Assembly: GCA_013043005.1 (NCBI GenBank)
Contig: JABDOZ010000177.1
Location: 1-53,527 of the forward strand
From: Flavobacteriaceae bacterium
Lineage (GTDB): Bacteria > Bacteroidota > Bacteroidia > Flavobacteriales > Flavobacteriaceae
Length of the DNA stretch: 53,527 nt
Direction: 5' to 3'
Of this stretch, positions 40,529-42,881 are shown in pieces; within the stretch, counting starts at the first letter, position 1; every line of letters starts with the position of its first letter. The notes beneath the pieces are model-generated. The model was given only the letters and a program-made list of their open reading frames with translations, had not been told where the DNA came from and searched no databases. Position numbers and translations under genes: made by a program.

Positions 40529-42040
40529 TTAGTTCAATTCTAATAGATCATCCAAATAATCTCTTGTGTTGGATAGCCTTGGGACTTTATGCTGGCCTCC
40601 TAATTTATTATTGTGTTTTAACCAATCGTAGAATAACTGTTGTCTCGCAACAATTATTTTAGGTTTATTAAGTGTCATATTATTGTATCGTTTAGCTTCA
40701 TAATCAGAATTTATTGATTTTAAGGCATTGTCAAACAGCTCATTGAAGTAATTAATGTCTTCAGGAGGAGTTTTGAATTCTATAAGCCACTCATGGGCTC
40801 CTTTTTCCTTTCCTTTCATAAAAATTGGAGCAGCAGTAAAGTCAACAATTTCTGATTGCGTTTTTTTACAGACTTTTCTAAGAGCATGTTCCGCGTTTTC
40901 GATTATTAATTCTTCACCAAATGCATTGATATGATGTTTAGTGCGTCCGCTTACTTTAATTCTGTATGGGTTTATAGATGTAAACCTAATAGTATCTCCA
41001 ATTTTATATCGCCAAAGTCCAGCATTGGTTGTTATTATAACCGCATAATTTTTATTTTTTTCGACTTCACTAAGAGGAATTACCTTTTCTTTTGAAGTCC
41101 CGTAGAATTCCATATCTATGAATTCATAAAAAATACCATAATCCAGCATTAGTAATAGTTCTGATGAATTATTTTGATCTTGAATTGCAAAAAATCCTTC
41201 AGAAGCATTATATATTTCATAATAGCTAAACTTTTTATTAGGCAGAATTTTTTTATACTGTTCGGTATATGGTACAAAGCTTACGCCTCCATGAAAATAC
41301 ACCTCCAGATTTGGCCAGATATCAAATAAATTTGTCTTTCCAGTTCTATCAAGTACTTGATTTAACAAAACCAACATCCATGAAGGAACTCCTGCCAGGC
41401 TTGTCACATTTTCCTGAATGGTTTCGTTTACTATGGCTTGCATTTTAGATTCCCATTCGCTCATTAAGGATACTTTACTGCTTGGCGTACTGCTGAATTC
41501 CGCCCAGAAAGGCATGTTGTCAATTAATATAGCACTTAAGTCACCAAAAATTGTCCCATTTTCTTTGTACAATTCTTTACTCCCGCCTAGTCTTAAACTC
41601 TTACCTGTAAATAATTGAGAATTTTCGTTGTTATTTAAATACAAACAAAGTAAATCTTTACTAGCGGCATAATGACAATCTTCTAAAGATTCAGGGCTAA
41701 CAGGTATAAATTTACTTTTGGAATTAGTTGTTCCGCTGGATTTTGCAAACCATTTAATAGGAGTGGGCCAAAATATATTGTTTTCACCGCGCCTGGACCG
41801 TTCAATAACGTTTTGATACTCCTCATAATTCGTTACTGGAATAGTATTCGCAAAATCACTGTAATTCTTAATCGAGCCAAAATCGTATTTTTTGCCAATT
41901 TCTGTATCTTTTGCAATATCAATTAAGCTTAACAGCAATTCATTCTGAACTTCATTGGGGTATTTTAAAAACAATTCAATTTGATGAAATCGTTTTTTTA
42001 AAAACCAGGCAGCAATCGAATTAATTAATGGAATTGGCAT
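40529..42040 (-). CDS. GH3 family acyl-acid-amido synthetase-like protein
   Basis: A 503-aa adenylate-forming enzyme of the GH3 family. The ATP-binding motif A-K-S-S-G-T-T-N-S-K-S-K-F-I-P near 95-109, the Y-N-A-S-E-G-F-F-A motif near 295 and the Y-R-I-K-V-S-G-R hinge are visible. In plants GH3 proteins join hormones such as auxin or jasmonate to amino acids; bacterial homologues are common in Bacteroidota but their substrates are not established. I chose the ATG at 42040 (M-P-I-P-L-I-N-S-I); an upstream GTG at 42073 would leave no promoter room. It shares a 43-base divergent region with the DUF2797 gene. Confidence 0.88.
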   Translation of the reverse strand: MPIPLINSIAAWFLKKRFHQIELFLKYPNEVQNELLLSLIDIAKDTEIGKKYDFGSIKNYSDFANTIPVTNYEEYQNVIERSRRGENNIFWPTPIKWFAKSSGTTNSKSKFIPVSPESLEDCHYAASKDLLCLYLNNNENSQLFTGKSLRLGGSKELYKENGTIFGDLSAILIDNMPFWAEFSSTPSSKVSLMSEWESKMQAIVNETIQENVTSLAGVPSWMLVLLNQVLDRTGKTNLFDIWPNLEVYFHGGVSFVPYTEQYKKILPNKKFSYYEIYNASEGFFAIQDQNNSSELLLMLDYGIFYEFIDMEFYGTSKEKVIPLSEVEKNKNYAVIITTNAGLWRYKIGDTIRFTSINPYRIKVSGRTKHHINAFGEELIIENAEHALRKVCKKTQSEIVDFTAAPIFMKGKEKGAHEWLIEFKTPPEDINYFNELFDNALKSINSDYEAKRYNNMTLNKPKIIVARQQLFYDWLKHNNKLGGQHKVPRLSNTRDYLDDLLELN

Positions 42041-42083
42041 ATTTGCTGTATCTTTAAGAACTAAAAATAACACTTTTTTTATT

Positions 42084-42881
42084 ATGAATTATCAAGGTGT
42101 TTTAAGAAAAATGGAAACTGAATTTGCTCACCCGATTCAGTATTTTCTGGTATTTGATAATGATTTTATAAACATGAATCAATTATTAAATAAAAAACTG
42201 ACTATTAAGTTTGTAAAATATCAATGTTTGAACTGTGGTCTGGATTTGACAATTTACAGACAAGGGTTTTGCAGAACTTGTTTTTTTGATATTCCCCAGG
42301 CAGCGGATTGGATAATGAGGCCGGAGCTAAGTACAGCTCATCTCGACAAAGAAGACAGGGATTTGGAGTATGAAAAAAAAGTTCAGTTACAACCTCATGT
42401 GGTCTATTTGGCCAATTCCAGCAATGTAAAAGTTGGAGTAACCAGAAAAAGTCAGGTGCCTACCAGGTGGATAGATCAGGGTGCCCATGAAGCCATAGAA
42501 ATTGTAGAGGTTCCAAACAGGTATCTTGCAGGTATTACGGAAATTGCTCTCAAAGAACATGTTTCCGACAAGACTAACTGGCGAACTATGCTTCAAAATA
42601 AAATTAAAGATGAAGATTTAGTTGAATGGCGAGATAAATTAGAGCAATATATTCCAGATGAAGCTAAGGACTATTTTATTGAGAGCAATTCAGAAACTCA
42701 TTTAGAATTTCCTGTAAAAGATTATCCTGAGAAACCAAAAAGCTTGAATTTAGAAAAGACACTGGCTTATATTGGAATGCTCAAAGGAATTAAAGGACAA
42801 TACCTGATTTTTGAAGATCAAACCGTTTTTAATATTAGAGCCAATGAAGGATTAGTTGTGAATATTGAAGTTGGAATATAA
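42084..42881 (+). CDS. DUF2797 protein, zinc-ribbon plus GIY-YIG-like domain
   Basis: A 265-aa protein matching DUF2797. C48-x2-C51 and C63-x2-C66 form a likely zinc ribbon. The central part reads V-V-Y-L-A-N-S-S-N-V-K-V-G-V-T-R (about 106-121), then R-W-I-D-Q-G-A and later E153 and N165; this order recalls the GIY-YIG nuclease core (paired aromatic/glycine strands, arginine, catalytic glutamate, asparagine). No function is established for the family, so nuclease activity is an inference from pattern. It is divergent from the GH3 gene over 43 bases and its stop abuts that of the opposing SPOR-like gene. Confidence 0.82.
   Translation: MNYQGVLRKMETEFAHPIQYFLVFDNDFINMNQLLNKKLTIKFVKYQCLNCGLDLTIYRQGFCRTCFFDIPQAADWIMRPELSTAHLDKEDRDLEYEKKVQLQPHVVYLANSSNVKVGVTRKSQVPTRWIDQGAHEAIEIVEVPNRYLAGITEIALKEHVSDKTNWRTMLQNKIKDEDLVEWRDKLEQYIPDEAKDYFIESNSETHLEFPVKDYPEKPKSLNLEKTLAYIGMLKGIKGQYLIFEDQTVFNIRANEGLVVNIEVGI

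Follow-up and report, generated by a model that had tools for sequence, protein, structure and literature searches.

The closest described systems are found among GIY-YIG proteins. Odn (Gp88), a T5orf172 nuclease of phage ICP1, cuts DNA in vitro and loses this activity in the E180A variant, according to the excerpts of its report that were available (PMC8263062). SNIPE is an anti-phage protein that combines DUF4041 with a GIY-YIG domain, and the available portion of its report describes E414 as needed (PMC13190303). For the restriction enzyme Hpy188I, the residues Y63, H76, R84, Y88, K73, and E149 have been proposed to activate water, contact the phosphate, and bind the metal in the accessible sections of the source (PMC11975286). 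The Asn of the last GIY-YIG motif may be absent, as in Slx1, and the portion of the superfamily survey that makes this point does not name DUF2797 (PMC1564403). DUF2797 itself is listed as GH3-linked and Zn ribbon-containing in an excerpt of another report (PMC9425974). Within the texts and excerpts searched, DUF2797 is nowhere called GIY-YIG and PF10977 is not mentioned; likewise, no description of DUF2797 was seen among the listed papers that join GIY-YIG with a zinc ribbon, an OB-fold, SLX1, or AlphaFold.

The window, that is, the whole stretch of DNA that was analyzed, comprises 53,527 nucleotides from a Flavobacteriaceae bacterium. Its DUF2797 gene was located by ORF calling and a Pfam match at 42084–42881 on the forward strand, as are all parts of the protein given below. 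The ORF begins with ATG and encodes 265 amino acids plus a stop codon. Residues 37–259 match PF10977 (DUF2797) with an E-value of 8.4e-91 and 304.3 bits, which exceeds the model cut-off of 25 bits. The initial annotation had read this protein as a zinc-ribbon GIY-YIG protein, and all of the residues that it named are present where it placed them, namely C48, C51, C63, and C66, VVYLA at 106–110, KVGVTR at 116–121, RW at 128–129, E153, and N165. A loose pattern of this motif (Y..[KY][IV]G..R..E..N) is not rare on its own, as it was present in 1,044 of 100,000 shuffles of the DUF2797 protein; at the examined loci, 15 of the 85 matching ORFs were not DUF2797, and the eight such ORFs listed show a motif of the neighboring GH3 protein. 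A strict pattern, Y..K[IV]GxT(x7)R..E, occurred in 11 of 100,000 shuffles. When 660 ORFs of the window and of 80 Flavobacteriaceae-type loci were examined, 70 matched the strict pattern and all 70 were DUF2797; the source loci numbered 81, and the ORF picker is assumed to have dropped the remainder. A chance motif was rejected on these strict-pattern counts together with conservation over 132 homologues, and it is this conservation and the predicted fold that lead us to place the GIY-YIG-like motif above chance.

Conservation was assessed in 132 homologues, and 30 non-redundant sequences (<70% identity) were aligned separately. The set consists mainly of Bacteroidota; other phyla contribute 8 of the 132 rows, two of which (L101 and L107) are near-duplicates. 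The window protein (L013) was excluded from all alignments and a shortened homologue (L087) from two of them. Y108, K116, G118, and T120 were invariant (132/132 each). Y108 (42405–42407) is the Tyr of “GIY” and lies in the predicted strand 105–111, and K116-V117-G118 (42429–42437) constitutes the “YIG” box with Lys replacing Tyr, V117 being found in 30/30. The Arg of helix 1, R128 (42465–42467), and the predicted metal-binding Glu of helix 2 (residues 146–157), E153 (42540–42542), were each found in 131/131 readable rows, as was Q132, which occupies the place of the helix-1 His/Tyr at R+4. In the alignment of 30 sequences, the invariant residues were C48, P80, H105, Y108, K116, V117, G118, T120, R128, W129, Q132, G133, A134, R146, G150, E153, W166, L241, and N250. 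The catalytic-type set is unchanged across Bacteroidota, Gammaproteobacteria, one cyanobacterium, and one haloarchaeon.

The initial annotation had proposed to check the conservation of R, E, and N and had made its reading depend on that of the Glu as well as on the fold. Both R128 and E153 bear this out in every readable homologue; N165 (42576–42578) does not, as it is not strictly conserved (Asn in 119/132), and the adjoining W166 is (132/132). The second Tyr of canonical GIY-YIG, the order of which had been recognized in this protein, is not present either: all 132 homologues have Lys at this place (the KIG variant), with Val-Gly retained. Judged from sequence, this Lys marks a Lys-type variant and not exclusion from the GIY-YIG superfamily, because the Lys form also occurs in T5orf172/MUG113 domains (38/38) and in Hpy188I.

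Structure prediction with AlphaFold2 was applied to the full protein and to the domain 96–208 alone. For the full protein, the alignment held 79 close relatives (80 sequences in all) that are 78–84% identical to the window protein, and the model reached a pLDDT of 73.6 and a pTM of 0.56. The domain alone gave a pLDDT of 80.0 and a pTM of 0.72 with helix 1 resolved, and two of its five models were poor (pLDDT 44 and 39). Both predictions contain the three-strand core on which the initial annotation had staked its claim, with the GIY-YIG core order beta-beta-alpha-beta-alpha over residues 105–157 (b1 105–111, b2 115–121, a1 127–131, b3 136–143, and a2 146–157). In the domain model, each catalytic-type residue falls in the expected element. 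From these models and the structural ranking described below, the predicted GIY-YIG core is placed at residues 105–170 (42396–42593).

The proposed resemblance to known GIY-YIG folds appeared in one of two structural comparisons. Foldseek on PDB gave no GIY-YIG protein among the matches listed for the full or the domain model (best E 0.51 and 0.44, respectively), and the domain model compared with viral models yielded nothing significant, the few listed rows named GIY-YIG or endonuclease having E 0.77 or worse. VIA-align 2 was used for a structural second look at the Foldseek candidates (492 chains for the domain model and 707 for the full model) and ranked Slx1 and HIGLE first. With the domain model, the best 8 listed of 492 were seven Slx1 entries and HIGLE at Z 5.2–5.9 (85–90 residues aligned, rmsd 3.0–3.5), the best other fold had Z 3.6, and the UvrC GIY-YIG domain had Z 3.4–3.6; with the full-length model, Slx1 took ranks 1–3 of 707 (Z 5.3, 5.0, and 4.8) and UvrC GIY-YIG again 3.4–3.6, all Z values for DUF2797 lying below 8, a range that is, per the tool, compatible with a mere common arrangement. 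Overall, the DUF2797 domain very probably has the GIY-YIG fold. The claim of homology rests jointly on motif, conservation, and predicted fold, because profile matches are weak or absent.

For profile comparison, 38 unique T5orf172/MUG113 domains were collected from genomes of the same phylum. These domains have Y, K, G, and R in 38/38, T at K+4 in 34/38, and R at K+12, which is the same spacing as in the DUF2797 motif K-[VI]-G-x-T-x7-R. Alignment of the DUF2797 domain with T5orf172/MUG113 by hhalign gave a score of 21.3 and a probability of 20.7%. None of 200 column shuffles reached this score (mean 10.4, max 17.5). With T5orf172, the long alignment covers both motif boxes, R128, and E153. 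A decoy test comprised 92 windows, in which the L210, L133, and L137 families were counted as positives because these loci had been fetched as T5orf172/MUG113 matches. One true decoy window was left above the T5orf172 score: it reached 22.8 over 14 columns and comes from an unrelated family, FolK-like as we read its sequence. With the canonical GIY-YIG profile, the DUF2797 score was 9.7, equal to that of shuffled controls, and T5orf172 reached a probability of 96.7%. Pfam GIY-YIG models matched none of 30 homologues at E <= 10, NCBIfam likewise gave no GIY-YIG match for the 30, and PDB sequence searches with DUF2797 returned no relevant match.

A four-Cys knuckle, CX2C-X11-CX2C, was identified from homologue conservation at residues 48–66 (42225–42281). 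The two C-x2-C pairs reported ahead of the GIY-YIG-type motif are thus found, and they are conserved with few exceptions, Cys being present at 48, 51, 63, and 66 in 30, 29, 29, and 29 of the 30 non-redundant homologues. Asp replaces C63 in 13 of 95 Flavobacteriaceae rows, and one homologue (L019) retains one of the four Cys, the other three being lost, with its catalytic-type residues intact. Because the Cys change or decay while the catalytic-type set stays, the putative active site is more tightly constrained than the presumed zinc ligands. Pfam zinc models gave E 0.03 or worse on the homologues, and AlphaFold2 places no zinc.

The two ends of the chain are predicted to contribute to a small beta-barrel. 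AlphaFold2 places strands 2–6, 11–13, 19–23, 28–30, and 38–46 in the N-terminal half (residues 1–46; 42084–42221) and strands 228–237, 240–243, 247–250, and 257–263 in the C-terminal half (residues 225–265; 42756–42878), the latter having the conserved motif LxGIKGQYLxF..VxNIR. Since VIA rows that span both chain ends are weak matches (Z 2.0–3.7) to Sm/LSm, OB, and SSB proteins, the strands 2–46 and 228–263 probably form one barrel around an insert made up of the GIY-YIG domain and the knuckle. The barrel halves (residues 1–47 and 222–265; 42084–42224 and 42747–42878) also look alike, with G.L.. followed by QY.L.F; in a profile comparison, this internal N/C repeat was weak, its score being reached by 9/200 shuffles.

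DUF2797 belongs to the core genes of Flavobacteriaceae; elsewhere, its distribution is patchy. Searches with the Pfam model found it in 119/120 Flavobacteriaceae genomes, including 99/99 good ones, and in a single copy in all but one. G322 is the sole two-copy genome of the 120, and its second copy is diverged (E 4e-89 and 2.9e-75). The gene was present in 45/149 genomes of the class sample, 19/148 of the phylum sample, and 1/14 named control genomes (Haloferax volcanii), so that its earlier description as part of the core genome is right for the family and not for the phylum. Fourteen PLSDB records carry DUF2797, from Acaryochloris, Acinetobacter, Photobacterium, Salinivibrio, Pseudomonas, Alteromonas, and Halocatena, and a renewed PLSDB search with the Halocatena protein returned the same 14. 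Two scans of viral contigs detected no DUF2797 relative, and PADLOC gave no match in 30 DUF2797 homologues at E <= 1. Two records labeled “Acinetobacter phage” contain DUF2797, and the one examined (H15) has porin, HIT, and ABC-transporter neighbors, like a bacterial contig; three DUF2797 “plasmid” records of 3.7–4.1 Mb look like chromosomes. The “phage” and multi-Mb “plasmid” records are likely mislabels of the collection.

Next to DUF2797 lies a GH3-family gene (40529–42073, reverse strand), which is divergent from it with few bases between the starts. It is kept at 77/80 close-relative loci and at 19/43 loci from the phylum and class samples, and was found at 0/8 plasmid or phage-collection loci. 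The GH3-DUF2797 link suggests that the two genes are controlled together rather than that their products have a chemistry in common. Outside Flavobacteriaceae, no consistent repair genes were seen among 28 upstream and 45 downstream ORFs taken with a crude ORF picker; the upstream set was 28 of 48 ORFs, after removal of GH3 neighbors and one ambiguous ORF (L104). In Acaryochloris, an RNB ribonuclease gene lies upstream of DUF2797 (one case). Halocatena salina carries DUF2797 on a 532-kb plasmid, where a Piwi-domain (Argonaute-like) gene comes directly after it (L106, 3815–7455).

The reading that we favor, with fair but not full confidence, is that DUF2797 is a housekeeping Lys-type GIY-YIG endonuclease, metal-dependent and with a zinc knuckle between barrel halves. 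As modeled, the two halves would flank the Lys-type GIY-YIG domain (Y108, K116, R128, E153) and the four-Cys knuckle. A single Mg or Mn ion would be bound by E153, water would be activated by Y108 together with K116, the scissile phosphate would be contacted by R128, and the barrel and knuckle may bind the nucleic acid. Because the gene is core, mostly single-copy, and was not found in the viral sets searched, the target would be the cell's own nucleic acids, probably its damaged or branched DNA and not invading DNA. Branched DNA is suggested as a substrate because Slx1 is the nearest structure. More tentatively, DUF2797 might be a vertically kept and so far unrecognized structure-specific endonuclease, in which a Lys-type GIY-YIG module resembling T5orf172, as met in phage and anti-phage proteins, became inserted together with a zinc knuckle into a split OB/Sm-like barrel and which now serves as a housekeeping enzyme for branched or damaged DNA.

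The same fold could instead belong to a catalytically retired protein or to a non-nuclease nucleic-acid binder, such as a sensor of structured DNA or RNA, with a pocket for phosphate or a ligand. This would fit the replacement of the second Tyr by Lys and of the helix-1 His/Tyr by Gln132, the variable Asn, and the additional invariant residues H105, W129, Q132-G-A, R146, W166, and N250, which suggest a specialized pocket and are, to our knowledge, not standard GIY-YIG positions. However, Glu and Arg would be free to be lost in a retired domain, and none of the readable rows among the 132 has lost either; moreover, the available text describes cleavage by a T5orf172 protein that lacks the helix-1 His/Tyr (PMC8263062). 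We regard retirement as unlikely, and an active Lys-type nuclease as likelier than a dead domain because of the parallels with Hpy188I, Odn, and SNIPE.

A nuclease of this fold might also act on RNA (tRNA, rRNA, or mRNA) rather than on DNA. An OB/Sm-like barrel and a zinc knuckle would suit RNA, both chain ends weakly match Sm/LSm and OB proteins in VIA, and the core gene is without linkage to repair genes, the single RNB ribonuclease neighbor in Acaryochloris being in line with such a role. Against this, the cited GIY-YIG enzymes (Hpy188I, Odn, and SNIPE) act on DNA in the portions of their reports available, and no RNA-related neighbor recurs, which makes an RNA target a decidedly unlikely reading. 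An unrelated alpha/beta fold that carries the motif by chance and is not GIY-YIG at all would accord with Foldseek, Pfam, and the canonical profile having given no significant match; the motif, its conservation, the order of the strands, and the ranking by VIA nevertheless agree on GIY-YIG, and we consider this improbable. A nuclease that serves defence or a mobile element, as other T5orf172/MUG113 proteins do, is very improbable. In the excerpts at hand, those proteins include Odn, from a phage, and, judged by architecture, the anti-phage SNIPE, and one haloarchaeal plasmid copy of DUF2797 adjoins a Piwi gene; but DUF2797 is in 99/99 good Flavobacteriaceae genomes, with GH3 beside it at 77/80 loci. 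A phage or defence gene was rejected on the lack of a viral relative in two scans and of a PADLOC match in 30 homologues, and on the bacterial-type neighbors of the “phage” record H15.

With the housekeeping Lys-type endonuclease as the favored reading, a domain of unknown function found throughout a large bacterial family, and also in cyanobacteria and haloarchaea, gains a biochemical prediction that can be tested on named residues. If true, it would add a housekeeping member to the Lys-type GIY-YIG branch, the compared examples of which are proteins of phages, of anti-phage defence, and of restriction, and would indicate a step of DNA or RNA processing in Flavobacteriaceae that has yet to be charted. 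Should the structure-specific version hold, the enzyme would play, in Flavobacteriaceae as well as in some Gammaproteobacteria, cyanobacteria, and haloarchaea, a role like that of Slx1 in eukaryotes.

Compared with known systems, DUF2797 shares individual features with each. It has the Y, K, R, and E set of Hpy188I with Lys in the second box, as far as the accessible sections describe it (PMC11975286), but equivalents of H76 and Y88 are missing, Q132 stands at R+4, and, unlike Hpy188I, DUF2797 shows no restriction/methylase context. Odn, in the available text, also lacks the helix-1 His/Tyr and is yet active (PMC8263062). With the 38 T5orf172/MUG113 domains (PF10544, PF13455), DUF2797 has the Y..K[IV]GxT..R order, the spacing, and the later Glu in common; these domains end in E-[FW]-F, whereas DUF2797 has the invariant W166 13 residues past the Glu, and their Pfam models give no match to DUF2797. 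We know of no zinc knuckle or split barrel in T5orf172/MUG113. A locus from a genome of the same family (L133, 472–1920) encodes DUF4041 with MUG113/T5orf172, the SNIPE architecture, with a KIG box, and a nuclease domain very similar to it is found at several more loci of the phylum. Elsewhere, eight small GIY-YIG matches lie in tandem about 360 bases apart (G053, C34:6991–9748), with smaller runs in G132 C1. The N-terminal GIY-YIG domain of UvrC has the core fold in common with DUF2797 (Z 3.4–3.6); in DUF2797, however, the second Tyr is Lys, the helix-1 Tyr is Gln, the Asn is not strictly conserved, and all UvrC domains following GIY-YIG are absent. Slx1 and HIGLE remain the top structural matches to the DUF2797 core, with 13–18% identity in the aligned part. 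Slx1 carries a zinc RING/PHD-type domain after its nuclease domain, whereas the Cys knuckle of DUF2797 stands before the GIY-YIG core.
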